53,372 bases of DNA. Origin: an archaeon. Its GTDB lineage: Archaea; Nanobdellota; Nanobdellia; Woesearchaeales; UBA11576. The position numbers and the translations under genes are program-made. The notes under the pieces are model-generated. The model did not search any database. It was not told the DNA's origin and was given only the letters and a program-made list of their open reading frames with translations. Shown here piece after piece: positions 10,232 to 25,540 of this stretch; within the stretch, counting starts at the first letter, position 1, and the number at the start of each line of letters is the position of its first letter. The stretch spans positions 1 through 53,372 of the forward strand of contig JAGVOD010000047.1 in the NCBI GenBank assembly GCA_020052935.1, given 5' to 3'.

Positions 10232-11521
10232 TTATTTCCTGTTCCACTTCACCTTAAGGAAGTGTGAGCTGCAGCTGAAGCACGGGTCGTAGCTTCTTAT
10301 CAGCTTCTCTATCTCAAGGATTATCTTCTGCTCGCTCATCTTTAGCAGCGAAGGCAGGTATGCGCGTATGTCTTGCTGCATGTTGAGCAGGTTCTGGCAT
10401 GTCGGCGTTATTATGTTCGCCGAGACAATGTCTCCTTTCTCGTTTATCTCGTAGTCGTGTATGAGTATTCCGCGCGGCACTTCTATGATCGCTATGCCTC
10501 GCGCTTTCTTGAACTTCATCTCGCCGGGGTGTATAGCCTTCTCCTCTGTTATCGCGAGTTTCCTGCATATCTCTATGCCTCTGCTGATGTAGTGCACCAG
10601 CTCGACTCCCTGCGCGAAGTTGTCCATGAATGGGTTTGTTATCGGGAACCTGACTTTTGAGTCTGTGACTATCTTCTTGGCGTTCTTGGACAGGAAGCGG
10701 TAGTTGTTGTTCAGCCTCGCTAGTGCACCGACCATGTATGCTTTCTCTTTCTTGACGACGAAGTTTGCAGTTGAGTACGGCTCGTGGTATTCCTCGAGGT
10801 ACTTTGAGTACTCATCTTTCTTGAACCTGTTGGCTTTCGACACGAGCTCGCCCGAGAGCATCGGGTAGTTGACTCCGTCGTACAGCGAGAAATACTCGGT
10901 CTCCCGCTCGAACTTGGGGTATTTGATGCTGGCGAACAGTTTTGCTGTGGCGATGGCGTCGTTCTGCGCTTCCTGGAGCTTCCTCCTCAGTTCGTCTACT
11001 GCTTCCTGCGTCGGTAGCTTGAGCATGCCGCCTGGCTGCATGGATACTGGGTGCATCTCCCTTCCGCCTATCGCTGTTACGATCTCGTTGCCTAGTTTTG
11101 TGAGCCTGAGTGCGCGCTCCACTTCCTTCTTGTACTTGGTGCTCATGTCGAGCGCTGATTCGAATCCGAGGTAGTCTGGCAGGGCGAGGAAATAGAGGTG
11201 TGTCGCGTGGCTTCTTATCCTCTCGCCGACCATCGCGAGCTCGCGCAGCAGCATCGTCTGCTGTGTGGGCTTTATTCCCAGCGCTTCCTCTACTGCCTGT
11301 ATAGAGCATATTGTGTGGGCGCAGCTGCATATCCCGCATATTCGGGAAGTGATCTCTGGCGCCTCGTAGCATTTCCTTCCTTTGAGCATGCCTTCGAAGT
11401 ATCTTGATCCCTCGACAGAGCCGAGCTCGCACTTCTTTATCTGGTTGCCTTCTATAGAAAGGTTCAGGTTGGCGTGTCCCTCGATCTTTGTTATGTGGTC
11501 AAGCTTTATAGTGCGGCTCAT
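10232..11521 (-). CDS. hyhL: group 3b-type [NiFe]-hydrogenase large (alpha) subunit
   Basis: Carries the NiFe(CN)2CO active site of a cytosolic hydrogenase; 429 residues. The proximal motif R60-ICGIC (Cys62, Cys65) and the distal motif DPCFSCSSH (Cys414, Cys417, His420) supply the four nickel-binding cysteines. Nine residues after His420 (FLKVKWNRK) would be removed by a maturation endopeptidase. The N-terminus KLDHITKIEGHANL is typical. Start overlaps the small-subunit stop by 4 nt (ATGA). Last gene of the order beta-gamma-delta-alpha, which matches Pyrococcus sulfhydrogenase I and Thermococcus hyhBGSL; the symbol is taken from that operon. Confidence 0.94.
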   Translation of the reverse strand: MSRTIKLDHITKIEGHANLNLSIEGNQIKKCELGSVEGSRYFEGMLKGRKCYEAPEITSRICGICSCAHTICSIQAVEEALGIKPTQQTMLLRELAMVGERIRSHATHLYFLALPDYLGFESALDMSTKYKKEVERALRLTKLGNEIVTAIGGREMHPVSMQPGGMLKLPTQEAVDELRRKLQEAQNDAIATAKLFASIKYPKFERETEYFSLYDGVNYPMLSGELVSKANRFKKDEYSKYLEEYHEPYSTANFVVKKEKAYMVGALARLNNNYRFLSKNAKKIVTDSKVRFPITNPFMDNFAQGVELVHYISRGIEICRKLAITEEKAIHPGEMKFKKARGIAIIEVPRGILIHDYEINEKGDIVSANIITPTCQNLLNMQQDIRAYLPSLLKMSEQKIILEIEKLIRSYDPCFSCSSHFLKVKWNRK

Positions 11522-12675
11522 CTTTTGAATCTCCCTTTGATCATGTTGAAGAATGACTTGTCTTTCTTTTGCGGCTCGGATTCTGCCTTGAAAGTTTTCT
11601 GCGGCGCCGGCTCATTGGCAGGCTTTGAAGGCTGTACTCTCTTCGCTGCTGTTTTCTTGGCGGTTTTCTCTTTTTTCTTCGCTTTCTTTATCTTCTTGAC
11701 AGCTTTCTTCGCTGTTTTCTTTGCAGCTGGCTTCGGCTTTGCCTTCTTCAAGGCCTTTTTCTTGAGTACCTTCTTGAGAGTCTTCTTCGCAGGTTTTGCT
11801 TTGGCCTTCTTGGTCTTCTTCGCTGTCTTTGCTACTTTCTTCGCCAACTTCTTCTTCGCCAGCTTCTTCTTCACTAGCTTTACTTTCTTGGCTGGTTTTG
11901 CCGGCTTTATCTTGATCGGCTTAGGCTCTGGCGGAGTCTCCATCATCATGCCTGCGAATGTCCTGAGGCGCTGCTTGATGTGTTCCTTCGGGAATCCTTT
12001 CTGCTCGAGCAGTTTGGATATGAGCGGGAGGTTGGCGTCGGGCATGGGTCCTCTGCAGCCCCAGCATTCGAGCTTTCCGTTGGTGCATACTGCGTCGCAA
12101 CCGCCTCTTGTTATGGGTCCGAGGCACATCTTTCCGTCGTCGAGCAGGCATCTGTTCTCGTTGAGCCTGCATTCGAAGCACACTGGCCTGTCATAATCTG
12201 CGGGTTTCTTTCCCAGCAGCAGGTCTTTCATGAAATCGAGTATCTGTTTCTTGTCTGGCGGGCAGCCCGGGATGTAATAGTCTACTGCGACGTGCTTGTT
12301 TATCGGCAGCGGCTGCGTGTCCTTCATCTCTTTCGTCTTCTCGTACACCATCGCCACGTATTTTGATGCGTCTATGAAGTTCCTGTAGGCAGGTATGCAT
12401 CCCGTGCATGCGCAGGCTCCCAGCGCGACGAGCGTCTTTGTCTTGGCCCTTATGGCCTTGAGCATCTCGAGGTCCATGTTGCTCGCTACCAGTCCTTCCA
12501 TGAAGACTATGTCGAACTGTTTCTCTTCCTTCAATTCTTTTATGAGCCTGAATGACTTTATCTGGAAGTGCCTCGCCATCTCGAGTATCTCATCCTCGTT
12601 GAATACGAAGCTGAGTAGGCAGCCGTTGCATCCGGTCAGGTCGTAAAATCCTACTACTGGTTTGTCTTTTGCCAT
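11518..12675 (-). CDS. hyhS: group 3b-type [NiFe]-hydrogenase small (delta) subunit with long Lys/Ala-rich tail
   Basis: Electron-transfer subunit that should carry three FeS clusters. The core (about residues 1-246) has DLTGCNGC, GACACTGC, PGCPPDK, CFEC, CLGPITRGGCDAVC and CWGCRGP, as in group 3 small subunits of about 260 residues. From about residue 247 to 385 the protein continues as a highly basic, low-complexity Lys/Ala/Pro tail (DNA about 11521-11937), ending KSFFNMIKGRFKR. I know no family member with such a tail. ATG at 12675 is preferred; an in-frame TTG at 12687 overlapping the gamma stop is the alternative. Overlaps the large-subunit start by 4 nt. Confidence 0.9.
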   Translation of the reverse strand: MAKDKPVVGFYDLTGCNGCLLSFVFNEDEILEMARHFQIKSFRLIKELKEEKQFDIVFMEGLVASNMDLEMLKAIRAKTKTLVALGACACTGCIPAYRNFIDASKYVAMVYEKTKEMKDTQPLPINKHVAVDYYIPGCPPDKKQILDFMKDLLLGKKPADYDRPVCFECRLNENRCLLDDGKMCLGPITRGGCDAVCTNGKLECWGCRGPMPDANLPLISKLLEQKGFPKEHIKQRLRTFAGMMMETPPEPKPIKIKPAKPAKKVKLVKKKLAKKKLAKKVAKTAKKTKKAKAKPAKKTLKKVLKKKALKKAKPKPAAKKTAKKAVKKIKKAKKKEKTAKKTAAKRVQPSKPANEPAPQKTFKAESEPQKKDKSFFNMIKGRFKR

Positions 12676-12683
12676 GTTGATCG

Positions 12684-13523
12684 TCAATCGTTCGTGTACT
12701 GGCCTATCTCGTCATACCTGAACACAGGGCCGTCGAGGCATGTGTACTTACCGTGTATCATGCAGTGCCCGCATATGCCTAGTGCGCATTGCATCAGCCT
12801 TTCTGTGCTGACGTAGATCTGCTCCTCTTTGAAGCCTTTGTTCTTGAGTATGGATATCGTGATGTTCATCATCATGGGCGGTCCGCAGATGAAGACTATC
12901 TTGTTCTCTGGGTTGAGCTTTGCTTTCTCGATGAGGTTTGTTATGAAGCAGACGTCGCAGCTTATCCTTGCCTTGTTCGGGTTCTTGTCCACGCTGAGGT
13001 TGAGGTTGTACTTGTTCCTCCATTGCCTCATCTCGTCCTTGAAGAGTATGTCTTCCGGCGTCCTGAAGCCGAAGTACAGGCTGACTTCGCCGAAATTGTT
13101 CTTGTGTTTGTCGACGTATGAGAGTATGCCTTTCAGCGGTGCGACCCCGCTGCCGCCTCCTATGACTATGAGCTCCTTGCCGAAGAGTTTGTCCATAGGG
13201 TAGCCTTTTCCGTAGGGCCCGCGCACGAAGAGTGTGTCGCCTTTCTTCATCTTCGAGAGCGCTTTTGTGACATTGCCTACCTCGCGGATGTTGAGGTCCA
13301 TGAATTCCTGTGAGTATGATGCTATTGATATGGGTGCCTCGCCTATGCCTGGCAGCGTCAGTTGGACGAACTGGCCCGGGTCGTGTTTTGTCTTGAAGTC
13401 TATGCGTATCATGAAGCAGTCGCTGGACTCTCTCTTGAAGCTGGTTATCTTAGTAGAGACCGGCAGGTATGGGTTCGCAGACTGCTGCTCTGGTTCTTCT
13501 TTTGCTGTCTTTACGCGCGGCAT
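12684..13523 (-). CDS. hyhG: group 3b hydrogenase gamma subunit (FAD/NAD(P)-binding diaphorase)
   Basis: A 279-residue ferredoxin-reductase-like subunit that passes electrons between NAD(P)H and the hydrogenase FeS chain. An FAD domain (DPGQFVQLTLPGIGEAPISI) is followed by the NAD(P)-binding GKELIVIGGGSGVAPLKG and CGPPMMM, and a C-terminal FeS site with Cys residues in MQCALGICGHCMIHGKYTC, as in PyrK/AsrB/sulfhydrogenase gamma proteins. The GGAG 7 nt upstream lies within the end of the beta gene, one base before the ATG. Flanked by beta and delta subunit genes in the canonical order. Confidence 0.92.
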   Translation of the reverse strand: MPRVKTAKEEPEQQSANPYLPVSTKITSFKRESSDCFMIRIDFKTKHDPGQFVQLTLPGIGEAPISIASYSQEFMDLNIREVGNVTKALSKMKKGDTLFVRGPYGKGYPMDKLFGKELIVIGGGSGVAPLKGILSYVDKHKNNFGEVSLYFGFRTPEDILFKDEMRQWRNKYNLNLSVDKNPNKARISCDVCFITNLIEKAKLNPENKIVFICGPPMMMNITISILKNKGFKEEQIYVSTERLMQCALGICGHCMIHGKYTCLDGPVFRYDEIGQYTND

Positions 13524-13524
13524 C

Positions 13525-14499
13525 TTATTTCTCCAGTTTCATCTCGTTGATTCCCTTGACGAAGTTTATCCTTGTGGGGCATCCTCTTATGCATCTTCCG
13601 CAGCCTGTGCACAGCGTCATGCCGTGCCTGTCCTTGAAGTACTGCAGCTGGTGGTATATCCGGTGCTTGAACCTGTCTTCTCTTGTGCTGCGGAATACGT
13701 GTCCGCCCGCGACTTTTGTGAAGCAAGGCAATTGGCATGCTGCCCAGTTCCTTTTCCTTTCGCCTTTGTTGAGCGTGGCATCGACCTCGTCGTGTATGTC
13801 GAAGCAGTAGCAGCTGGGGCATAGAGTGACGCATGCTGCGCAGCTGAAGCAGATGTCCACCATCTTCTTCCAGTCCGGGTGGTTGTAGTATTCTTTTATG
13901 TCTCGCTTGTCGAGCTGTAGCTTTGTCTCTATCCTCCTGTCCTCAGGTCTTAGGAAGAGTTCTGTGTCCCAGAAGTATTTCCTGTACCTGTCTACGAAGT
14001 TGCGTCCTTTCTCGCTTCCTATCTCCACGAGGTACGCATCATCTTTGTCGTACAGCATGAGGTCGTAGTAGTCGCCGAGGTCCATGGATGAGCAGAAGCA
14101 GTACTCGTCGAATGGTTCTTTGCAGTTGTATCCTACAAGTATTGTCCTGTCGCGCTCTTCCTTGTAGTACGGGTCCTTCGTGTCTTTCATGAACATGATG
14201 TCCTGGCGCCTGATGGAGTTCAGGTCGCACCTCTTAAGGCCGACGATGACGCGCTGTTTCTTCTCTGCGCTGGTCTCTGGCTCTGCGAGCTTGTTCTTGT
14301 CGAAGCTGAACATGGTCTGGTGTTTCCTGAAGAAGAGCTTCTTGACAGGGAAGTATGTGTGTAGCGATATCTCTATCTGCTTTATGTCTTTCACGAGTTC
14401 AAACCTCGACTCATCTGTCTTGACAGGTGCTATAAGCTCGTTGTATCGCATAAGGTCTAGAAGGAAGTCGTTGAATGACGCTTTGTTGATCTTCAGCAT
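13525..14499 (-). CDS. hyhB: group 3b hydrogenase beta subunit (4Fe-4S ferredoxin-like)
   Basis: A 324-residue iron-sulfur subunit of the AsrA/sulfhydrogenase-beta family. The C-terminal third has two ferredoxin-type cluster motifs, CFSCAACVTLCPSC and CTGCGRCIRGCP. Upstream residues include IVGLKRCDLNSI and a Cys-containing YNCKEPFDEYCFCSSM stretch typical of the family. It relays electrons between the gamma diaphorase and the small subunit. It is the first of the four hyh genes and stands behind a structured repeat that separates it from hypA. The weak Shine-Dalgarno is AAGTGG before the ATG at 14499. Confidence 0.9.
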   Translation of the reverse strand: MLKINKASFNDFLLDLMRYNELIAPVKTDESRFELVKDIKQIEISLHTYFPVKKLFFRKHQTMFSFDKNKLAEPETSAEKKQRVIVGLKRCDLNSIRRQDIMFMKDTKDPYYKEERDRTILVGYNCKEPFDEYCFCSSMDLGDYYDLMLYDKDDAYLVEIGSEKGRNFVDRYRKYFWDTELFLRPEDRRIETKLQLDKRDIKEYYNHPDWKKMVDICFSCAACVTLCPSCYCFDIHDEVDATLNKGERKRNWAACQLPCFTKVAGGHVFRSTREDRFKHRIYHQLQYFKDRHGMTLCTGCGRCIRGCPTRINFVKGINEMKLEK

Positions 14500-14767: not shown

Positions 14768-15088
14768 TTACTCAATCTCTACTTGCTTGAGTATTATGTC
14801 CATGCCCTCTGTTATCTCTGGCACCATGCCGCACTTCGGGCAAAAAAACACTGAGTTGCCATGCCTGTGCTCTTCTATCCTCGGCTCCCCCACATAGCCG
14901 CAGGCGCACTTTGCCTTGGCCTTCTTTCTTGTGATGCGCACCTTCCAGGGGACCATGCGTTTCAGCGTCTCTGCCAACTCTTCTGCAGGCAGATGTCCTA
15001 AATCGCCCACCTCAACGGTTATAGACTTGACTTTTCCCTGTTTTTTGGCTGTTTCTATGATGTCCCTGCTTATTAAGGTGTCATGCAT
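14768..15088 (-). CDS. hypA: hydrogenase nickel-insertion protein HypA
   Basis: A 106-residue accessory protein that delivers nickel to the [NiFe] large subunit. The N-terminal Met-His pair (His2 is the Ni ligand in the family) and a zinc site made by CACGYVGEP and FFCPKCG match HypA. It is slightly shorter than the usual 113-118 residues. It is upstream of the group 3b operon on the same strand, separated by a repeat, and has a TATA-like box about 29 nt before its ATG. HypB, HypD, HypE and HypF are not in the window. Confidence 0.88.
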   Translation of the reverse strand: MHDTLISRDIIETAKKQGKVKSITVEVGDLGHLPAEELAETLKRMVPWKVRITRKKAKAKCACGYVGEPRIEEHRHGNSVFFCPKCGMVPEITEGMDIILKQVEIE

Positions 15089-15848: not shown

Positions 15849-16682
15849 ATGGAAGACAATAACAGTCTTGCTGTTTTTGAAGGCAAGAGTATCAGGCGTG
15901 AAAGACATAATGGTGAATGGTACTTCTCGGTAGTTGATGTTGTTGGGGCGCTTACAGATAGCGATAATCCAAGGAATTATTGGAGCATGCTCAAAACGAG
16001 GGAAGCAGAGCACGAGGTTGAGTTGTCCACATTTTGTGTACAACTGAAATTAGTGTCGGCAGACGGCAAAAAGTATGATACTGATTGCGCGAACACCCAG
16101 TCCATCTTTAGGATAATCCAGTCAATTCCTTCGAGAAAGGCTGAACCTTTCAAGCTGTGGCTGGCCAAAGTCGGCCACGAGCGCATCCAAGAGATAGAGA
16201 ACCCAGAACTTGCGCAGAAACGCATGAGGGAGATATATCGCGCAAAAGGTTACTCTGGCGAGTGGATTGAGAAGAGGGTAAGGGGCATCGCCATAAGGGA
16301 CGAACTGACGAGCGAGTGGGACAAGAGGGGAGTCAAGAAAGACAGGGAGTATGCCATCCTCACGACAGAGATATCCAAGGCGACATTCGGGCTAAGTCCT
16401 GCGGAATATAAGCAGGTCAAGGGCCTTAAGGATGAGAACCTGCGTGACCACATGAACGATCTGGAGCTGATATTCACCATGCTTGGCGAGGCCTCGACTA
16501 CTAGGATTGCCAAGAACAAGGATACACAGGGCTTTGTTGAGAACAAGGGCGCTGCGAAAGAAGGTGGCGAGGTCGCTGGCGTAGCTAGAAAGGAACTGGA
16601 AAAGCGGAGTGGTGAGAAGGTTGTCTCATCAGAGAATTACATTCAGTTGCCTGAAAAAGAAAAGCGTAAAAGATTAAACTGA
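15849..16682 (+). CDS. Bro-N domain protein (phage antirepressor / DinD-like)
   Basis: A 277-residue protein. The N-terminal 100 residues (FEGKSIRRERHNGEWYFSVVDVVGALTDS, then WSMLKTRE and PFKLWLAKVGHERI) fit the BRO/antirepressor N-terminal domain found in viruses and mobile elements. The C-terminal half has KKDREYAILTTEISKATFG, as in DNA-damage-inducible protein D and related long Bro-N proteins. The role is probably DNA binding or regulation. It lies on the opposite strand to its neighbours and between two copies of the ppsA 3' end, which suggests past insertion. No integrase or other phage gene is next to it. Confidence 0.78.
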   Translation: MEDNNSLAVFEGKSIRRERHNGEWYFSVVDVVGALTDSDNPRNYWSMLKTREAEHEVELSTFCVQLKLVSADGKKYDTDCANTQSIFRIIQSIPSRKAEPFKLWLAKVGHERIQEIENPELAQKRMREIYRAKGYSGEWIEKRVRGIAIRDELTSEWDKRGVKKDREYAILTTEISKATFGLSPAEYKQVKGLKDENLRDHMNDLELIFTMLGEASTTRIAKNKDTQGFVENKGAAKEGGEVAGVARKELEKRSGEKVVSSENYIQLPEKEKRKRLN

Positions 16683-16694
16683 TATTCTTGGCCT

Positions 16695-19106
16695 CTACCT
16701 TATCCCCAGCTCTCTCTCCTTCTCTGCGATCTTCAGTGTTGTCTTGACTACGGTGTCTGGGTTCAAACTCATGCTATGTATCCCTGCTTCAACCAGGAAC
16801 TGCGCAAAATCCGGAAAATCACTCGGAGCTTGGCCACATATGCCAATATATTTGCCCTTTCTGTTCGCCACGTCTATGACCTGCTTGATGAGTTTCTTTA
16901 CAGCATCGTTCCTCTCGTCGTATATCGAGGCGACAAGCTCTGAGTCCCTGTCAAGTCCCAAAGTAAGTTGGGTCAGGTCGTTGCTGCCGATCGAGAATCC
17001 GTCGTAGATGTCGAGGAACTCGTCTGCAAGGATGACGTTCGATGGGATCTCGCACATGCATATTACCTTGAGTCCGTTCTCTCCCTTCCTCAGCCCGTTC
17101 TTGCCCATCTCTGCGATGACTTTCTTCGCTTCGGTTATGGTGCGGCAGAATGGTACCATCACTTGGAGGTTTGTGAGTCCCATGTCGTTCCTCACGCGCA
17201 ATACTGCCTTGCACTCGAGCCCGAATGCTTCCTTGAATGCTTCAGCATAGTAACGCGAGGCGCCCCTGAATCCTATCATGGGGTTGTCTTCTTTGGGTTC
17301 GAAGTAAGTGCCTCCGATCAGGTTGGCGTACTCGTTTGTCTTGAAGTCGCTGAACCGGAGTATTACGTCCTTCGGGTAGAATGCTGCTGCGATCCTGGCT
17401 ATTCCCTGTGCCAGCTTGTCGACATAGAAGTCTACCTTGCTCTTGTAGCCGAATGTCAGCTGCTCTATCTGCTTCCTTGTCGCGGGGTCTGTGACCTTGT
17501 CGAAGTGTAGCAGTGCGTTCGGGTGGACCTTTATGTATGAGTTTATGATGAACTCCTCTCTCGCAAGCCCGACTCCCTTGTTGGGCAGGAAGCTCATCTC
17601 GAACGCCTCTTCTGGGTTGCCGACGTTCATCATTATCTTTGTCCTGGTCTCTGGTAGGTTCTTGAGGTCTGTCTTCAGTATCTCGAACTGGATCGCTCCT
17701 TCATACACATAGCCTTCATCGCCCTGTGAGCAGTCTACTGTCACTTTCTGTCCTGGCTTGATGGCTTCTGTCCCGCTGCCTGTCCCGACGACGCAGGGTA
17801 TGCCTAATTCTCGCGAGATTATCGCTGCGTGGCATGTCCTTCCGCCCCTGTTTGTCACTATGGCAGATGCTATCTTCATGATCGGCTCCCAGTCCGGGTC
17901 TGTCATGTCTGTTATCAGGACTTGGCCTTTCTTGAAGTCTGCTATGTTATGGACTTCCTTGATCACGTTGGCTTCTCCCGCGCCGATCTTCTCGCCGACG
18001 CTCTTGCCTGTGATGAGTATCTTTCCTTTGCCTTTGAGCTTGTACTCTTCGAGTGTCGTCTTGTCCTTTCGGCTCTGGACTGTCTCTGGTCGTGCCTGGA
18101 CTATGAACAGTTGGCCTGTGTTTCCGTCCTTGGCCCATTCCATGTCCATGGGCTTGAAGTAGTTCGCCTTCTGGCTGTAGTGGTCTTCTATGATGCATGC
18201 CCACTTGGCGAGCGTCAGGACCTCTTCGTCGGTCAGCGCGAACTTGCGTCTTTCCTCGTCGACGACAGGTATGTTCTTTGTCTGCTTGATGCCGTTGTGG
18301 GTGTAGATCATCTTTATGGCTTTCTCGCCGACTTCCTTGTGGATGAGCGGCCGGAATCCCTGCTTGAGGGTCGGTTTGAACACGTAGAACTCGTCTGGGT
18401 TCACAGCTCCCTGCACCACGTTCTCTCCGAGGCCGTATGCTGCTGTGATGAACACAACTTCCTTGAATCCTGATTCTGTGTCTATGCTGAACATGACTCC
18501 AGAGCAGGCCATGTCGCTCCTCACCATCTTCTGCACGCCTATTGACAGCGCTATCTTGAAGTGATCGAATCCCTTATCTACACGATAGGATATCGCGCGG
18601 TTCGTGAATAATGATGCAAAGCATTTCCTGCACGCATCGAGCAGTTGTTCTGGCCCTCGTATGTTGAGGAATGTCTCCTGCTGTCCTGCGAAGCTGGCGT
18701 CAGGCAGGTCCTCTGCTGTCGCACTGCTGCGTACTGCGACGTCTGTGTTCTCGCCGTACTGCTTGCAGAGGTTTGCGTAAGCTTCAACTATCTTCGCGCT
18801 GAGTTCTGGCGGGAATTCTGTGTTGAGGAATACGTGTCTTACTTTCTCACCCCTTGTCGCGAGGTTGTTCATGTCAGAGGTGTTGAGGTCTTTGAGTATG
18901 GTGCGTATCTTGTCCTTTATGCCCATCTTGTCGACAAGGTGGTTGTATGCTGTGGCTGTGACTGCGAATCCGTTCGGCACCTGCACTCCTTTCGGTGTGA
19001 GCATGCGGTACATCTCTCCCAGCGATGCGTTCTTTCCGCCGGTCAGCGGCACATCCTCTATGCCTAGTTGGTCGAACCATAGAATGAACTCTTTATCTCT
19101 TTCCAT
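16695..19106 (-). CDS. ppsA: phosphoenolpyruvate synthase
   Basis: An 803-residue pyruvate-water dikinase interconverting pyruvate + ATP and PEP + AMP + Pi. It has the N-terminal ATP-grasp part (VPLTGGKNASLGEM, VRSSATAEDLPDASFAGQQ), the phosphohistidine loop GGRTCHAAIISRELG, and the C-terminal PEP barrel with GSNDLTQLTLGLDRDS and the catalytic Cys in CGQAPSD. Length is normal. GAGGTG lies 7 nt upstream of the ATG. The leader contains a short GC-rich hairpin and a TATA-like stretch. It can act in gluconeogenesis or, in archaea, in the glycolytic direction. Confidence 0.96.
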   Translation of the reverse strand: MERDKEFILWFDQLGIEDVPLTGGKNASLGEMYRMLTPKGVQVPNGFAVTATAYNHLVDKMGIKDKIRTILKDLNTSDMNNLATRGEKVRHVFLNTEFPPELSAKIVEAYANLCKQYGENTDVAVRSSATAEDLPDASFAGQQETFLNIRGPEQLLDACRKCFASLFTNRAISYRVDKGFDHFKIALSIGVQKMVRSDMACSGVMFSIDTESGFKEVVFITAAYGLGENVVQGAVNPDEFYVFKPTLKQGFRPLIHKEVGEKAIKMIYTHNGIKQTKNIPVVDEERRKFALTDEEVLTLAKWACIIEDHYSQKANYFKPMDMEWAKDGNTGQLFIVQARPETVQSRKDKTTLEEYKLKGKGKILITGKSVGEKIGAGEANVIKEVHNIADFKKGQVLITDMTDPDWEPIMKIASAIVTNRGGRTCHAAIISRELGIPCVVGTGSGTEAIKPGQKVTVDCSQGDEGYVYEGAIQFEILKTDLKNLPETRTKIMMNVGNPEEAFEMSFLPNKGVGLAREEFIINSYIKVHPNALLHFDKVTDPATRKQIEQLTFGYKSKVDFYVDKLAQGIARIAAAFYPKDVILRFSDFKTNEYANLIGGTYFEPKEDNPMIGFRGASRYYAEAFKEAFGLECKAVLRVRNDMGLTNLQVMVPFCRTITEAKKVIAEMGKNGLRKGENGLKVICMCEIPSNVILADEFLDIYDGFSIGSNDLTQLTLGLDRDSELVASIYDERNDAVKKLIKQVIDVANRKGKYIGICGQAPSDFPDFAQFLVEAGIHSMSLNPDTVVKTTLKIAEKERELGIR

Positions 19107-19250: not shown

Positions 19251-19433
19251 GAGCAGCGCCACCGCCAATAATTGCTCAGGCAGTGCCGCCGCCATTTTGC
19301 GTAGCGATTTTCGGGGAGTGATTCGCTTGCGGAGGGGGAAGACCCCTACGGGGAGGTGCCGCAAATCCACAAAAATAAGCAACAAGCGGAGCCTGGCGCG
19401 GCACTGCCGAGTTAGCCTGGCGTGGCGCTGCTC
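19251..19433. repeat. structured intergenic repeat, copy 4
   Basis: Near-perfect terminal inverted repeats GAGCAGCGCCACCGCCA (19251-19267) and TGGCGTGGCGCTGCTC (about 19418-19433). Internal second arms (GGCAGTGCCGCCGCCA and CCTGGCGCGGCACTGCC), a TTTGCGTAGCGATTTT segment and the GGGGGAAGACCCCTACGGGG core at 19334-19353 are present. It lies between the 3' end of hydG and the promoter region of ppsA; the right end touches the hydG stop codon. Confidence 0.85.
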
Positions 19434-20820
19434 AGAAATACAGATCTCTCTTGCCTTTCTCCAGCTCTGTGAGCTTCTGGAGGGTCTTTTCCTTTATCCT
19501 GGAGTCTGGTATCTTCTCCAGCTCTGCGGATATCATCTTCTCCCCCATCTTCCGCAACTCTTCATCTCCATAGTCAAGCAGATATTCCTTGAATGTGAGC
19601 AGGCAATTCGGCAGGCAGAAGTTCTTTATCTCACCTACTTTTGCGAACTTCATGAAGTCATCGCCAGTCCTTCCAGAACGGTAGCATGCTGTGCAGAAGC
19701 TTGGCAGGAAACCTCTTTTGAGGTTCTCTTTTATTATCTCTGGCATTGTCCTAGTGTCCGCAACATTGAACTGCTCTGAGTCTGGCGCGTGTTCCCTCTC
19801 TTCAGAATATGCCCCTGGGTTTGTGCGCGAGCCAGCGCTTATCTGTGATATTCCGAGCTCGAACACCTCGTCCCTGAACGGCGGGACTTCTCGGGTAGAG
19901 AGTATCATTCCGGTGTATGGCACTGCCATCCTTATTATCGCGACTATCTTCTTGAATGCGTCGTTGGATATGGGGCAAGGTATGTCTTTTGCCAGCGGTG
20001 CGTTGAGCGCGTCCTCGATACGAGGCACGGATATTGTGTGTGGCCCGACCCCGAACTTCTCCTCGAGGTGCAGGCAGTGATACAGCAACGCAAGGACCTC
20101 GAACTTGTAGTCATAAAGCCCGAACAATGCTCCAATCCCTACATCGTCGATTCCGGCTTCCATCGCCCTGTCCATCACGTTCAGCCGCCATTCGTAATTC
20201 GCTTTGGGTCCTGAGGGGTGCATCCGTTTATACGTCGCCGGGTGGTATGTCTCTTGGAACAGTTGGTACGTCCCGATGCCGGCGTTCTTCAGCCTCTTGA
20301 AGTCCTCGGTGCTGAGCGGCGCGATATTTACATTCACGCGTCTTATGCTGCCGTTCCCGACCTTTGTCGCATACACTGTCTTTATCGCGTCCTCTACGTA
20401 TTTGATGTTTGAAGTGACAGGGTCTTCTCCGGTCAGGAGAAGCGTCCTCTTGTGGCCCTGTTTGAGGAGTTCCTCTACCTCTGCTTTTATCTCTTCCATG
20501 CTGAGCTGCTTCCTCACGAGCTCCTTGTTGTCCCGTCGGAATCCGCAGTAGAGGCAGTTGTTGATGCAGATGTTAGTGACATAGAGCGGTGCGAACAAGA
20601 CAAGCCTATTGCCGTATATCTCTTCTTTTATCTTCCGCGCTGCCGAAAACATCTTCTGGAGCAGTACCTTGTCCTCGCATTGCAGCAGCACAGCAGTCTC
20701 TTCAGGTGTCAGCCCCTTGAATTTGAGCGCTTTCTCTATGACAGAGAGCACTTTCTCCTTTGCAGGGCTCTTGCTCTCCTGGAGCAGTTGTTCTATCTTT
20801 TTGTCGTCTATGAAGCTCAT
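19432..20820 (-). CDS. hydG: [FeFe]-hydrogenase H-cluster radical SAM maturase HydG
   Basis: A tyrosine lyase that produces CO and cyanide as an Fe(CO)2(CN)-cysteine synthon for the H-cluster. The 462-residue protein has the radical SAM triad C85-INN-C89-LY-C92 after GNRLVLFAPLYVTN, and the C-terminal auxiliary-cluster motif Cys376-x2-Cys379-x22-Cys402 within FCTACYRSGRTGDDF and KNFCLPN. The CX2CX22C motif separates HydG from the thiazole enzyme ThiH. Its ATG overlaps the stop of the HypC-HydE gene by 4 nt. HydF and HydA are absent from the window. Confidence 0.93.
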   Translation of the reverse strand: MSFIDDKKIEQLLQESKSPAKEKVLSVIEKALKFKGLTPEETAVLLQCEDKVLLQKMFSAARKIKEEIYGNRLVLFAPLYVTNICINNCLYCGFRRDNKELVRKQLSMEEIKAEVEELLKQGHKRTLLLTGEDPVTSNIKYVEDAIKTVYATKVGNGSIRRVNVNIAPLSTEDFKRLKNAGIGTYQLFQETYHPATYKRMHPSGPKANYEWRLNVMDRAMEAGIDDVGIGALFGLYDYKFEVLALLYHCLHLEEKFGVGPHTISVPRIEDALNAPLAKDIPCPISNDAFKKIVAIIRMAVPYTGMILSTREVPPFRDEVFELGISQISAGSRTNPGAYSEEREHAPDSEQFNVADTRTMPEIIKENLKRGFLPSFCTACYRSGRTGDDFMKFAKVGEIKNFCLPNCLLTFKEYLLDYGDEELRKMGEKMISAELEKIPDSRIKEKTLQKLTELEKGKRDLYF

Positions 20821-22100
20821 ATGCCTAAGTCAGTAGGCGCTCTTCCTAGCGAGTATAATAATTCTACTGTCTGTTTTATCCCTTCCTCTATCTTCTTATC
20901 CGTATCAGGCCTTCCAGGGTATATCCGATAGAGTTTCCTGAATTGCACCGGAGTTATGTTGAGCATGAGTGAGTTCGCGCCAGCAAGCAATCCTTCCCGC
21001 CGTGCGTCCTTGTCAAGCGTCTCGAAGGCTGTAGTGACTAGTATCTTTGCTTCAGGGTCGGCGAACCTGGTCAGGGCGATGGTCTTCAGCAGCATTTCTT
21101 TTGTCGTCGGCTTTTGTTTTTCCAGAGGAGTTTCTTCTGCGGGTATCAGTGGCCCGAAGGAGTACATGTCTGCGCCGAGTGATCTTGTGAGAAGGATGTT
21201 GTCGATGAGGTCTTCATCAGTTTCGCCTGGAAGCCCGACGATAAATCCTGTCGCGAGGATGTAGCCTAGCTTTTTCGCGTACTTTATCAGTTCGAGCCTC
21301 TCATCGAGATTCGTGCCTGGCCGCAGCGCGTCAAATGTTTTCCTGTTTGATGTCTCGAATCTGAGCAGCACTGCTCGTGCTCCGGCGTCATAGAGTCTTT
21401 TGTATGTCTCTTTGCTCCTCACTCCTATGCTGATGAAAACGAGCACGCCCATCGCACGTATCTCACGCACAATCCTGGCGAGTCTCTCATCGTCGTACCA
21501 CTCATCCTCTCCAGACTGCAGCACTATCGCCTTGAAGCCGAGCTCTTTCACTGCGTGTTCAGCCGCAGCGATTATCTCGTCAGGTGTCATCCTGTACCTT
21601 TTTATCCTGCTGCTCTTGCGTATGCCGCAGTAATGGCAGTTGTTCTTGCAGTAGTTGGAGAACTCGAGTATGCCATGGACGCAGCAGGCGTTGTCGTTCC
21701 TCTTCTGGCGGAGGTTGTTCGCGGTGTCATAGACAAGTTTCAGCTCCGCAGCATTGTCGAGCTTGAGCAGCGCGAGCATGTCTTCTTTTGAGAGCTGCTT
21801 TCCGACATTCACTTTCTGGAGTATCGCGAGCGTGTTGGCGGATTCTTTCCCTGTCTTCTTCACAGAGGATAGTTTCTGGTCGACTTTCTTCAGCGCGAAG
21901 AACTGTTCTTTCCAGAGCGCGAGAGTCTCTTCCGCTTCCTCTTTTGAGACTTTGGAGATCAGCACTCCTCCCTGGGCATAGACGTATTCTCCGACCTTGG
22001 CATCAGTGTCTATCAGCACGTTCCTGTGCTCTCCGAAGTAGTCGACAACACCTATATTTCCCTTTATTGCCACCAGTTTGCCAGGTATTGCGTAGCACAA
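20817..22100 (-). CDS. hydE: HypC-HydE fusion: hydrogenase chaperone domain + [FeFe] maturase radical SAM domain
   Basis: Residues 1-72 resemble HypC/HupF (MCYAIPGKLVAI, GVVDYFGEHRNVLI, GEYVYAQGGVLISKVSKEEAEETL). Residues about 95-427 are HydE, with radical SAM Cys151/155/158 in FSNYCKNNCHYCG, VLQSGEDEWYDDE, and GLPGETDEDL. HypC proteins need a cysteine straight after the initiator Met. A TTG at 22100 gives Met-Cys exactly, with GGGG 8 nt upstream and a predicted transcript start near 22118; an in-frame ATG at 22124 would add 8 residues and bury the cysteine. HydE works after HydG; HypC carries the Fe(CN)2CO unit in [NiFe] maturation. Coupled to hydG by ATGA. Confidence 0.88.
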   Translation of the reverse strand: MCYAIPGKLVAIKGNIGVVDYFGEHRNVLIDTDAKVGEYVYAQGGVLISKVSKEEAEETLALWKEQFFALKKVDQKLSSVKKTGKESANTLAILQKVNVGKQLSKEDMLALLKLDNAAELKLVYDTANNLRQKRNDNACCVHGILEFSNYCKNNCHYCGIRKSSRIKRYRMTPDEIIAAAEHAVKELGFKAIVLQSGEDEWYDDERLARIVREIRAMGVLVFISIGVRSKETYKRLYDAGARAVLLRFETSNRKTFDALRPGTNLDERLELIKYAKKLGYILATGFIVGLPGETDEDLIDNILLTRSLGADMYSFGPLIPAEETPLEKQKPTTKEMLLKTIALTRFADPEAKILVTTAFETLDKDARREGLLAGANSLMLNITPVQFRKLYRIYPGRPDTDKKIEEGIKQTVELLYSLGRAPTDLGI

Positions 22101-22123
22101 CGTATTTTCCCCAGAGTAAAGCA

Positions 22124-22129
22124 TATAAA
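22124..22129 (+). promoter_or_regulatory. TATA-like box of the maturation protease gene
   Basis: TATAAA is centred 26 nt upstream of the ATG at 22152, predicting a leaderless transcript. It overlaps the region of the divergent hydE promoter. Confidence 0.6.
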
Positions 22130-22139
22130 CTTGCAGCTC

Positions 22140-22147
22140 TATAAAAA
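22140..22147 (-). promoter_or_regulatory. TATA-like box of the hydE-hydG operon
   Basis: TTTTTATA on the minus strand places transcription start near 22118, downstream of the in-frame ATG at 22124 and upstream of the GGGG/TTG start at 22100. It therefore supports the TTG start. Confidence 0.5.
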
Positions 22148-22151
22148 GCTT

Positions 22152-22538
22152 ATGTTATACCTGCTCTGTTTCGGCAACCCGTATCTTGACGAGGACAACC
22201 TCGCCCTGCAAGTCGCAGACCTCATCGTGAAAGACAAGATAAAAGGCCTCGAGGTAGTGAAGTGCATCCAGCCTGACGAGATCCTGTCTTACACAGACAA
22301 GGACTTCATGATTCTTGACGTTGCGCAGGGCGCGAAATGCGTTACGCTGATAGATGATATAGATAGATTGAAGTCGAGCAGCTTGTGCACATTGCATGAC
22401 TTCGACTTAGGCTTCTTCCTCAAGCTGATGAAAGAGACAGGGAAGCTGGAGAAAGTGAGGATAATATGCATCCCGCAGAAGGGGGATGTGAAGAAGATAA
22501 AGCAGCAGGTTCTTGATTTGCTTCAGAAAAGTATTTAA
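22152..22538 (+). CDS. [NiFe]-hydrogenase maturation endopeptidase (M52, HycI/HyaD-like)
   Basis: A 128-residue protease that trims the C-terminal tail of a [NiFe] large subunit after metal insertion. The N-terminus LLCFGNPYLDEDNLA matches the family's GN(P)-x-x-x-x-D-D/E start, and the metal-sensing residues can be placed at the D/E cluster 13-15, Asp56 in MILDVAQG and His82 in CTLHDFDLG. ATG at 22152 is preferred over a longer frame because homology begins there and a TATA box lies 26 nt upstream. It is divergent from hydE-hydG; both large subunits in the window have cleavable tails. Confidence 0.82.
   Translation: MLYLLCFGNPYLDEDNLALQVADLIVKDKIKGLEVVKCIQPDEILSYTDKDFMILDVAQGAKCVTLIDDIDRLKSSSLCTLHDFDLGFFLKLMKETGKLEKVRIICIPQKGDVKKIKQQVLDLLQKSI
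22532..22538 (+). promoter_or_regulatory. TATA-like box of the anchored protein gene
   Basis: TATTTAA is centred 27 nt upstream of the ATG at 22562 and overlaps the end of the protease gene. Confidence 0.5.
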
Positions 22539-22561: not shown

Positions 22562-23386
22562 ATGAAGCAGAAACATCTCGTCGGTTGGGCGGTTCTGGCG
22601 GTGTTGGTCGTCTTTGCCGCTGCGATTCTTATAAGAGGAGCGCTCATGGACAAAGACACCCTGCAGCGTGAAGCTATCGCGAAGTATTTCACAGAGGTTC
22701 CTGCGCAGACTGTCGATTACCTGAACATGACATTTCTCGTCTTTGATGACCCTTCGCCAGGAAGGAACCGTGAGAAAATATTTGGTGTCATAGGACATAC
22801 CGACCCTACCCGCGATTTTTATTTCTTCTCTGCGTTCAGCGAGTCAGCATTCACCAACTACACATATTTTGCTTACTTTCCTAAAGAAGGCAAGCTTTAC
22901 CGCTCCAGCTCATACGGGCTCGGATATTATCATTCCAGCGATAAACCTCAGCACCCAGAAATATACATCGAGCAGCTCTCCAGACTGGACAGCCTAGGCA
23001 TTGCTGAGGCGATGAGAATGAAGGATTACGTCTCGTTCCTTGAGAGGATATACGGATTTAGGTTGTCTGATGTCTACCAATCTAGCGAGTACTACTCAAG
23101 TGTCCCGAAGGAGTACATCCATCAGGAAGGGCCGGGAGGCCCGGACAGGATAAGGTATGAACCGTCAAGATACTTCCTGCTTATCCACACCAGTATATAC
23201 GACAAGAGAGATGCTTTGTGGTTGTCTTGCTCCACCAACCTGACCTGCTACTATGAGAAAGCCAAGGAAGAGCAGCCGATATGCGCCAAGATTCCTCTTT
23301 TCGTCGACCAGAACGCAACAACTGATGGCGGAGTCATAGATAACTGCAACGCGTGGCTGAAGGCAAATACTGCTTATGCTAAATAA
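22562..23386 (+). CDS. membrane-anchored extracytoplasmic protein of unknown function
   Basis: A 274-residue protein with one N-terminal hydrophobic helix (about residues 7-27, WAVLAVLVVFAAAILI) preceded by Lys, so it is probably an uncleaved signal anchor with the rest outside. The outer part is rich in Tyr, Phe and Ser (YFFSAF, YTYFAYF, YRSSSYGLGYYHSS) and has cysteines near the C-terminus (LSCSTNLTCYY, PICAK, IDNCNAW) that could form disulfides. I recognise no family. It lies between a hydrogenase maturation protease and the convergent hydrogenase large-subunit gene, with its own TATA-like box, so a link to hydrogenase is unproven. Confidence 0.7.
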   Translation: MKQKHLVGWAVLAVLVVFAAAILIRGALMDKDTLQREAIAKYFTEVPAQTVDYLNMTFLVFDDPSPGRNREKIFGVIGHTDPTRDFYFFSAFSESAFTNYTYFAYFPKEGKLYRSSSYGLGYYHSSDKPQHPEIYIEQLSRLDSLGIAEAMRMKDYVSFLERIYGFRLSDVYQSSEYYSSVPKEYIHQEGPGGPDRIRYEPSRYFLLIHTSIYDKRDALWLSCSTNLTCYYEKAKEEQPICAKIPLFVDQNATTDGGVIDNCNAWLKANTAYAK

Positions 23387-23390
23387 GTGA

Positions 23391-24671
23391 TTACTCCATT
23401 TCCACTTCCATCTGCAAAAAGTGCGTAGAGCACGATATGCACGGGTCATACGCCCTTATCAATTTCTCTATCTCGAGCTTTATTTCATCAGGCGACCTGC
23501 CGAGTATCTCCTGCAGGTACTCTCCGATCGCTTCCTCTATGTGCTGCAGGTTCTGCGTCGTAGGCGTTGTTATGTCTGCTGCTGTGCAGTAGCCTTTGTC
23601 GTCGAAAGAATAATGGTGGAACAGTGTGCCGCGCGGAGCCTCGACAGCCCCTATGCCTTCGCAGCTGCACGGTTTCACAGTGAATTCAGTAGGCGCCTCT
23701 GGCTTTATCTCGAGATTAGACAGTATGACTATCGAACGGTTTATGCCTTCCAGCACTTCGAGTGCCTGTGCTGGGATGTTCATGAACGGGTTTGTGTTGT
23801 TTTCGCAGATCTTCTTTGCGTACTTCTTGGACTCTTCAGACAGCATCTCGGTGTTGTTGCATACCCGCGCCATCGCTCCGACAAAGTAGCTCTTGCCTTC
23901 GCGTGTGGCGAATTCTGCTGCTGAACCTTCGCGCAGATACTCCTTGAAGTGCTTCTTGTAGTCTTTTGTCGGGAAGCACGCCCCTCCCTGGCACCTGACG
24001 ATAGTATCAGAGTAGAAATATTCTTCTCCGCTGAGCGCGAAGTGCGGCGCGTCCTTTGAAAAGTCAGGGTACGAGAGCGACATGAACAGCTTGACTGTCT
24101 CTACTGCGTCTTTCTTGCATTGCTTCAGCTCAGAGAGCAGCGCGTCTATCTTATCTTTTGCAGGCGGCCTTGAGAATCCTCCGACGACGCAGGCTATCGG
24201 GTGCACGTCCCTTCCTGCGATAGTGAAGACGATCTGGTTGCCGAGCCTTTTCAGCCGGAGTGCCCTCTCGAGGATAGCTTTGTGCTTCTTTGCCATGCCT
24301 ATCGCGCTTCCGACTCCGATGTAGTCGGGCAGCGTAAGGAAGTATAGGTGCAGGATGTGGCTCTGTATTATGCCGCCGATGTTCAGCACTTCGCGCAGCT
24401 TTCTTGTCTGCTCCGAGACCTTTATTCCGAACGCGTCCTCTATGGCTTTCAGTGATCCGAGAGTATGTACTACTGAACACACGCCGCATATCCTTGATGA
24501 TATGTGGCTGAGGTCGTTGAACTTTCTTTCCTTGAGTATTCCTTCGAAGAACCTCGCTCCTTCCAGCACCCGAAGTTCTACCTTCTCGACCTTTCCGCCA
24601 GCTACCTTTACGTAAAGCCTGGCGTGGCCTTCTATCTTCGTGATATGCTCAAGGTTTAGTCTTGTTCCCAT
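23391..24671 (-). CDS. [NiFe]-hydrogenase large subunit, second set (group 3-like)
   Basis: A 426-residue catalytic subunit, similar throughout to the alpha subunit at 10232 but clearly distinct. Nickel-site motifs are intact: R60-ICGVC (Cys62, Cys65) and DPCISCSTH (Cys411, Cys414, His417), with a nine-residue cleavable tail FLQMEVEME. The N-terminus NLEHITKIEGHARL is canonical. Its start overlaps the small-subunit gene by 23 nt. No diaphorase (gamma) or ferredoxin-like (beta) gene accompanies this pair, so its electron partner must be encoded elsewhere; HydE/HydG lie nearby. Confidence 0.92.
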   Translation of the reverse strand: MGTRLNLEHITKIEGHARLYVKVAGGKVEKVELRVLEGARFFEGILKERKFNDLSHISSRICGVCSVVHTLGSLKAIEDAFGIKVSEQTRKLREVLNIGGIIQSHILHLYFLTLPDYIGVGSAIGMAKKHKAILERALRLKRLGNQIVFTIAGRDVHPIACVVGGFSRPPAKDKIDALLSELKQCKKDAVETVKLFMSLSYPDFSKDAPHFALSGEEYFYSDTIVRCQGGACFPTKDYKKHFKEYLREGSAAEFATREGKSYFVGAMARVCNNTEMLSEESKKYAKKICENNTNPFMNIPAQALEVLEGINRSIVILSNLEIKPEAPTEFTVKPCSCEGIGAVEAPRGTLFHHYSFDDKGYCTAADITTPTTQNLQHIEEAIGEYLQEILGRSPDEIKLEIEKLIRAYDPCISCSTHFLQMEVEME

Positions 24672-25428
24672 TTTTGCTCTCTGTCAGCTTCCTCTCGCCG
24701 AACTTCCCTAGTTTGCCTGTTATGTCTCGCTCGTCGAGACCCCAGCTCTTGAACAGCGCTATCTCTGCCGGGAAGTTGGCGTTCTCGAGCGGTCCGCGGC
24801 ACATTATGCACGGTATCTCCTCGCGTACGCATGCTGCATTGCAGCCTCCGTGCGTAACCGCCCCTAAACAGACTTTCTTCTCGCGCAGGAAGCAGTTCAC
24901 GCCGCGCCGCGGGCACTGGTTGCATACCGGGCCCTCGAATTCCTTGATGAGTTTGCCGTCGAGATAGTTGTTGATGAAATCCATGAACTCTGATTTGAGT
25001 ATCGGGCATCCGTACATGTAGTAGTCCACTTTTATAAAACTGGATATGGGCTGCGCCTCTATCGAGTCAGACAGCATCTTCTGGTTGTATGTGTACTTCC
25101 CTAGTTCTTTGTTCTCGATGAAGTTGCGCATCGCAGGTATGCCGCCGTGGCACGCGCACGCGCCCAGCGCGACGAGGAACTTTGACTTGGCTCTGATCTT
25201 CGCGATCTTCGCAGCTTCCTCTTTTGTGGTTATCGCGCCTTCGACAAACGCGAGGTCGAACTTCACTTTGCGGTTCTTCTGCTTTATGAGATGGAAGTAT
25301 TGCAGGTCTATCTTTTCTAGTATCTTCATCAAGTCGTCCAGGAACAGCACTGTGAATTCGCAGCCTTCGCAACAGGTGAATGAAAAGAAGCCGACTACAG
25401 GTTTTTTCTTTTTGTTTTTCTCAGCCAT
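24649..25428 (-). CDS. [NiFe]-hydrogenase small subunit, second set (group 3-like)
   Basis: A 259-residue FeS subunit of normal length. Cluster ligands appear in FTCCEGCE, GACACHGGIPAMRN, YGCPILK, CNQCPRRGVNC, CLGAVTHGGCNAAC and CIMCRGPLENA. It lacks the long basic tail of the first small subunit, ending only with a short KNGNKTKP. ATG at 25428 is chosen because it yields M-A-E-K like the paralogue and follows AAGAGTGTGAG; a TTG at 25449 is the alternative. Transcribed with the large subunit; the 338-nt upstream gap holds several hairpins. Confidence 0.91.
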   Translation of the reverse strand: MAEKNKKKKPVVGFFSFTCCEGCEFTVLFLDDLMKILEKIDLQYFHLIKQKNRKVKFDLAFVEGAITTKEEAAKIAKIRAKSKFLVALGACACHGGIPAMRNFIENKELGKYTYNQKMLSDSIEAQPISSFIKVDYYMYGCPILKSEFMDFINNYLDGKLIKEFEGPVCNQCPRRGVNCFLREKKVCLGAVTHGGCNAACVREEIPCIMCRGPLENANFPAEIALFKSWGLDERDITGKLGKFGERKLTESKNGNKTKP

Positions 25429-25439
25429 GCTCACACTCT

Positions 25440-25540
25440 TTTTTAGCAAAGCACTTTGCTTTTCGGTTTAAAAACTTTGTGCTGCCAAAACTCGAAAAGT
25501 TTTGTGCACCAAAAGCCAGAAATCCCTTTCTGGCTTTTTC
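25440..25540. promoter_or_regulatory. cluster of perfect hairpins upstream of the second hydrogenase pair
   Basis: The 338-nt gap between divergent genes (25429-25766) holds three stems: AGCAAAG/CTTTGCT at 25445-25460, CAAAACT/AGTTTTG at 25486-25504, and AAAAGCCAGAAA/TTTCTGGCTTTT at 25511-25538 (12 bp, loop TCCC). The last is followed by T residues on the plus strand and resembles an intrinsic terminator. GTTTTTAAACC on the minus strand could be a TATA element. Further right, CACTCGCGAGTG near 25654 is a palindrome, and CTTTATTAATGG near 25674 may serve the GT4 gene. No ORF is convincing here. Confidence 0.5.

Follow-up and report, generated by a model that had tools for sequence, protein, structure and literature searches.

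We have analyzed a window of 53,372 nucleotides, positions 1 to 53,372 of contig JAGVOD010000047.1 (assembly GCA_020052935.1), from an archaeon of the order Woesearchaeales. The window carries two copies of the [NiFe] hydrogenase large subunit gene, and close to the second copy lies a gene in which a HypC domain is joined to the N-terminus of HydE. The features of the region are as follows.

10232..11521, minus strand: [NiFe] large subunit, first copy (family searches)
11518..14499, minus strand: small, FAD/NAD and Fe-S subunits of the first hydrogenase (11518-12687, 12684-13523, 13525-14499)
14768..15088, minus strand: HypA nickel chaperone (Pfam, 33 bits against a cut-off of 28.9)
16695..19106, minus strand: 803-aa protein, PpdK-like by eye; the left synteny marker, 93% identical in the same-genus genome G118
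19432..20820, minus strand: HydG, 462 aa (NCBIfam, 591 bits against a cut-off of 312; motifs CX3CX2C and CX2CX22C present)
20817..22100, minus strand: HypC-HydE fusion CDS (ORF list, Pfam, NCBIfam, alignment of relatives, promoter spacing)
20865..21821, minus strand: HydE radical-SAM domain, TIGR03956 (NCBIfam, PDB, Foldseek)
21627..21650, minus strand: radical-SAM motif CX3CX2C, Cys151, Cys155 and Cys158 (from the sequence; invariant in five fusions)
21912..22097, minus strand: HypC (HupF_HypC) domain (Pfam, PDB match; Cys2 codon at 22097-22095)
22124..22129, minus strand: TTTATA promoter-like box, at -29 relative to the TTG start and overlapping an upstream ATG
22137..22538, plus strand: divergent HycI-like hydrogenase maturation protease (weak match, 18.4 bits against a cut-off of 23)
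23391..24671, minus strand: [NiFe] large subunit, second copy (Pfam, NCBIfam; motifs RICGVCSVVH and DPCISCSTH)
24649..25449, minus strand: [NiFe] small subunit, sulfhydrogenase delta type (Pfam, NCBIfam)

The HycI-like protease gene belongs to a family, F3, that is conserved beside [NiFe] loci, and the second-copy large subunit has a short C-terminal extension. Between these two genes is an ORF (22562-23386, plus strand) for a protein of 274 aa; it begins with a hydrophobic N-terminal segment, has no Pfam match and is missing from the equivalent position in G118. A BRO-N domain ORF (15849-16682, plus strand) also lies inside the hydrogenase region. On the fusion contig of another genome, G160, an ORF of similar appearance (L086:7061-7900) occurs near ORFs that appear by eye to be reverse-transcriptase-like, hinting at mobile elements around this locus.

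The fusion gene is an uninterrupted ORF that encodes 427 aa from a TTG start (20817-22124 when read from the upstream ATG), and its stop codon overlaps the ATG of hydG by 4 bp. The original prediction, made from the letters of the window, was that HypC had become the N-terminal domain of HydE, and this is borne out by Pfam, NCBIfam and PDB matches as well as by the predicted fold. The HupF_HypC Pfam accession matches with 51.8 bits (E = 9e-14, cut-off 28.5) at residues 10-71 of the ATG version, equivalent to 2-63 in the TTG numbering, and is followed C-terminally by Radical_SAM (92 bits) and BATS (33 bits). With the NCBIfam HydE model TIGR03956 (cut-off 254.6) the protein scores 259.2 bits, far above the scores of other radical-SAM families (PylB 166, BioB 127); among the relatives of the fusion, scores for this model lie on either side of the cut-off, between 253.7 and 272. 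The whole-protein HypC model TIGR00074, with a cut-off of 48 bits, gives 40.3 bits for the window protein and 39.3 to 45.3 bits for those relatives that reach the reporting threshold. In a PDB search, residues 1-67 correspond to HypC (2z1c/3vyr) and residues 92-422 to Thermotoga maritima HydE, the latter with an E-value of about 1e-68. The AlphaFold model of the fusion (pLDDT 77, pTM 0.78) has T. maritima HydE as its best Foldseek match (TM 0.91 on target). The N-terminal segment is HypC-like in all relatives. These results confirm that 20817-22100 encodes a genuine two-domain protein.

The prediction had also favoured the TTG at 22100 as start codon, as the best fit to the promoter and Shine-Dalgarno sequence; this start places a cysteine, the iron ligand of HypC, at position 2. 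In three relatives (L008, L009 and L131) the equivalent codon is an ATG in the context ATG-TGC/TGT-TAY, and the upstream ATG of the window overlaps the TTTATA box; the TTG start is therefore well supported. A TATA box 29 bp before the TTG would also suit a leaderless archaeal transcript. Cys2 has not been lost in any relative, being invariant in all five fusions that we have found. In one of these, that of G160 (L086:2900-3010), a non-standard ATC stands where Met1 is expected, after an in-frame TGA; an ATG near its TATA box is out of frame with HypC, and no standard start precedes the Cys2 codon.

We searched two genome sets for the fusion, 371 from the phylum and 353 from the order, and also scanned public genome contigs. 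It is found in five DPANN genomes belonging to three families of one order: G000 (the window), G160, G496, G407 (identical to G371 and L008, a Woesearchaeota MAG) and G482 (identical to G372 and L009, a Nanoarchaeota MAG). Those with stated quality are MAG-like drafts, 81-92% complete. The other four fusions share 53-70% identity with the window protein, their junctions align with it, and hydG lies directly downstream in each of the five genomes. Where the prediction had proposed to look for co-variation of Cys2 with the radical-SAM cysteines, the alignment shows both to be invariant. Since the same fusion, with Cys2 kept, recurs in five genomes at this level of identity, it is not an assembly chimera. 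In G496 (L131:4020-5390) hydG is split by an in-frame TGA, which may reflect either decay of the locus or an error in sequencing.

Searches for the remaining maturation genes covered four of the fusion genomes (G000, G160, G371 and G372). Neither HypD nor HypF was found in any of the four by family search. HydF was likewise not found, the best score in these genomes being at most 43 bits against 308-327 bits in three classical HydE/HydG genomes (G034, G081 and G120), in which hydF adjoins hydE; the TIGR03918 search matches background G-proteins in every genome, and HydF was therefore judged by score. HypE was not found in a search of the fusion loci. The [FeFe] hydrogenase domain of HydA was not found in G000, G160 or G371. 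The genome G372 encodes HydG and an atypical 353-aa PF02906 protein (L098:1273-2334, 119 bits) with ferredoxin-like clusters, an L1-like motif, TSTCP, and plausible cluster cysteines. A [NiFe] large subunit is present in four of the five fusion genomes, none being detected in G496, and the large subunits that were read have both canonical ligand motifs, RxCGxCxxxH and DPCxxCxxH, and end in a short tail. The fused HypC is the only HypC in the four genomes covered by the HypC-domain search, which disclosed no second HypC-like place. The classical DPANN HydEFG system resembles the fusion loci in that HydE adjoins HydG, but its gene content is the reverse, with HydA and HydF present and the [NiFe] large subunit absent from G034, G081 and G120.

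Could HydE and HydG simply work for an ordinary [FeFe] hydrogenase, with a HypC part that is incidental or helps in some other step? By family both are H-cluster maturases, and the short PF02906 protein of G482 retains its plausible cluster cysteines. We nevertheless regard this explanation as improbable, given that three of the genomes have no HydA and all four tested have no HydF, where classical DPANN genomes have both, and that the fusion locus adjoins [NiFe] subunits and a HycI-like protease. We also know of no role for HypC in H-cluster assembly.

The loss of HypD is not specific to the genomes with the fusion. In our sample of the phylum HypD is absent from 65 of the 79 genomes with strong [NiFe] large subunits, many of them more than 95% complete, and HypC is present in 76 of the 80 genomes searched. 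Degenerate large subunits were ruled out as the cause, as the ligand motifs are intact in all 25 that were read. The HypC of genomes without HypD is altered at one position. The histidine of the 'VHxGFA' motif (His45 of Thermococcus kodakarensis HypC) is kept in 13 of 13 genomes with HypD, lost in 25 of 25 without it, and replaced by glutamine in all five fusions, Gln43 in the window protein (Fisher p about 3e-11, with the genomes treated as unrelated). In the HypCD complex, HypC His45 and HypD Cys38 line the same cavity, which takes ATP or the Fe group (PMC11565642), and loss of the one residue thus fits loss of the protein that carries the other. Because the change in HypC tracks the loss of HypD without exception, we argue that the loss is real and not an assembly gap. 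The genomes with the fusion are drafts, and a HypD gene could sit in their missing parts; yet that the whole pattern is an artefact of chimeric assembly or incomplete genomes is extremely unlikely in view of the aligned junctions in five genomes, this exceptionless association, and the many nearly complete genomes without HypD.

The [NiFe]/HypC loci of the order fall into three groups by gene neighbourhood. The first contains HypD and HypE, with HypF nearly always close by, and is found in 14 genomes with HypD. The second contains HypC and an EamA-type transporter, in 18 of 19 genomes that have neither HypD nor the fusion, nearly always with a further gene for either a DUF6390 protein or F8, a protein of about 160 aa whose C-terminal half is HypC-like. 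HypE and HypF are also absent from those loci of this group that were read (L075-L081, L087-L090 and L149-L156). The third group, HydG with HypC-HydE, comprises the five fusion genomes and has neither of the other gene sets beside it. Thus HypD is found in 14/14, 0/19 and 0/5 loci of the three groups, and EamA in 0/14, 18/19 and 0/5; the absence of EamA and F8 from the fusion genomes was checked within the loci, and a weak, generic EamA match (42 bits) occurs in a single fusion-genome locus, away from the fusion. Family F6, considered as a candidate hidden enzyme, proved to be the EamA transporter itself, whose presence hints at the import of a precursor. One further genome, G261 (L091), has a HydE-like radical-SAM protein without HydA or HydF, and carries a HypC/F8/EamA [NiFe] cassette on another contig.

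A direct comparison of two of these arrangements is provided by the window and G118, a genome of the same genus. Gene order is common to both on each flank of the locus, with 62-93% identity, and the hydrogenase is orthologous, its adjacent large subunit being 75% identical. The stretch enclosed by the PpdK-like and HycI-like genes contains EamA, F8 and HypC in G118, whereas in the window it contains HydG and HypC-HydE. Judged by synteny, one maturation module has been exchanged for another in place, and this constitutes the strongest evidence that HydG and HypC-HydE act on the [NiFe] enzyme. It also bears on the suggestion that the product of the fusion is a different metallocofactor or a metabolite and that its hydrogenase neighbours are coincidental. 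The HydE domain does stand at the edge of its equivalog family, with altered residues, and G496 has no detected large subunit, but the fused protein supplies the sole HypC of four [NiFe]-encoding genomes and takes the place of a HypC cassette at the same locus, and we consider such a function very unlikely.

The original prediction had envisaged a direct hand-over of an Fe-CO-CN unit between the [FeFe] and [NiFe] pathways. The idea that such a unit passes from HydE-type chemistry to HypC is supported by our analysis. A hand-over between two pathways is not supported, however, because neither is complete: HypD, HypF and HydF are missing from all four genomes tested and HydA from three of them. 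HydG with HypC-HydE looks rather like a replacement route, since at these loci the pair appears to substitute for the other [NiFe] maturation modules.

The HydE domains of the five fusions cluster in the HydE tree as a single clade (100/100), set off by a long branch (0.96). Their HydG partners do not form one group: that of G482 falls among classical DPANN HydGs, those of G407 and G496 group with the HydG of PDB 4wcx, and those of G000 and G160 lie apart. A single origin of the fusion is therefore probable, with pairing to HydGs of diverse origin; this would be expected were the product of HydG generic and the specificity a matter of HypC-HydE. The fused HydE retains Q107, S108, R159, E161, R180, M224, M291 and Y306 (T. 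maritima numbering) but carries T134F, R155A/G and R54H at positions where HydE from T. maritima to the DPANN does not vary. Some of these positions may line the substrate pocket. Since conserved residues are altered, the reaction of the fused enzyme may differ from that of HydE.

Taken together, we think it likely that HydG and HypC-HydE substitute for HypD, HypE and HypF in [NiFe] maturation, HydG making the unit, HydE processing it and HypC delivering it. HydG would cleave tyrosine to CO and cyanide and build an Fe-CO-CN-cysteine unit. The HydE domain would receive this unit and free or remodel it by radical SAM chemistry, perhaps with the adenosylation of the synthon that occurs in [FeFe] maturation, and Cys2 of the tethered HypC domain would capture the iron group. 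The HypC domain would then dock on the [NiFe] large subunit and deliver the group, with HypA helping to insert nickel and the HycI-like protease trimming the large-subunit C-terminus. In known systems HydE receives an Fe(CN)(CO)2(Cys) synthon directly from HydG (PMC12752695), and it is the HypC-family protein HybG, a carrier of Fe(CN)2CO, rather than HypD, that binds the apo large subunit (PMC8692609). With that hand-off on one side and that carrier role on the other, joining HydE to HypC would bring together both halves of a bypass around HypD, HypE and HypF. In this scheme the domains, the missing genes, the exchanged locus, the conserved residues and the tree pattern are observed, and the chemistry, the direct transfer and the CO:CN ratio of the final site are inferred.

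Some observations count against such a substitution. The known product of HydG has two CO to one CN, the opposite of the Fe(CN)2CO of [NiFe] enzymes, and ligand exchange or an unusual site must therefore be assumed. In addition, G482 also holds the PF02906 protein, and G496 combines an interrupted hydG with the lack of a detected large subunit. A more limited role for HypC would be that of a docking chaperone only, HydE and HydG supplying CO and cyanide while another scaffold assembles Fe(CN)2CO. HypC-family proteins do confer large-subunit specificity (PMC8692609), and the HydG partners are interchangeable. The iron ligand Cys2 is nevertheless invariant in 5/5 fusions, a fusion would tie assembly to delivery, and no extra conserved gene occurs in the fusion loci; we regard the docking role as unlikely.

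The substitute system proposed here can be compared with its better known relatives. Like HypC and HybG of the HypCDEF pathway, the fusion has a HypC domain with an N-terminal Cys2 and presumably brings the Fe group to the [NiFe] large subunit; unlike them, it is tied to a radical-SAM enzyme, HypD and HypF are missing, and the histidine of the HypD/ATP cavity is glutamine. It shares with T. maritima HydE (PDB 3ciw/7o1o/8qmk) the fold, the CX3CX2C motif and the eight kept residues, but differs in its N-terminal HypC, its three substitutions, its own deep clade, and its occurrence in genomes without HydF and usually without HydA. The HydG of the fusion loci resembles the known tyrosine lyase, being full-length with both cluster motifs, a GPHT motif and a DLYF C-terminus, and is distinguished by its mixed evolutionary origin and the absence of HydF from its genomes.

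[NiFe] hydrogenases are generally considered to depend on HypD, HypE and HypF. In the journals covered, our literature search turned up no account of the fusion or of [NiFe] maturation without HypD; a 2024 Cell paper reportedly deals with minimal and hybrid archaeal hydrogenases, and an earlier mention of the fusion there is possible. We give about an even chance to a broader proposal that joins two claims: that there is a second route to the [NiFe] active site, in which tyrosine-derived CO and cyanide from HydG are processed by a HydE with a HypC carrier of its own attached, and that most members of the order that encode [NiFe] enzymes use a third, transporter-linked route (HypC, F8/DUF6390 and EamA). 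The second route may even yield an Fe(CO)2(CN) rather than an Fe(CN)2CO centre.

If HydG and HydE can replace HypD, HypE and HypF, two classes of hydrogenase regarded as independently evolved would share an interchangeable supply of diatomic ligands, and the setting of the CO:CN ratio would become a testable question. A compact two-gene maturase could also simplify the heterologous production of [NiFe] hydrogenases. These small uncultured archaea appear to have swapped the standard machinery for the Fe-CO-CN group for two radical enzymes of the [FeFe] pathway.
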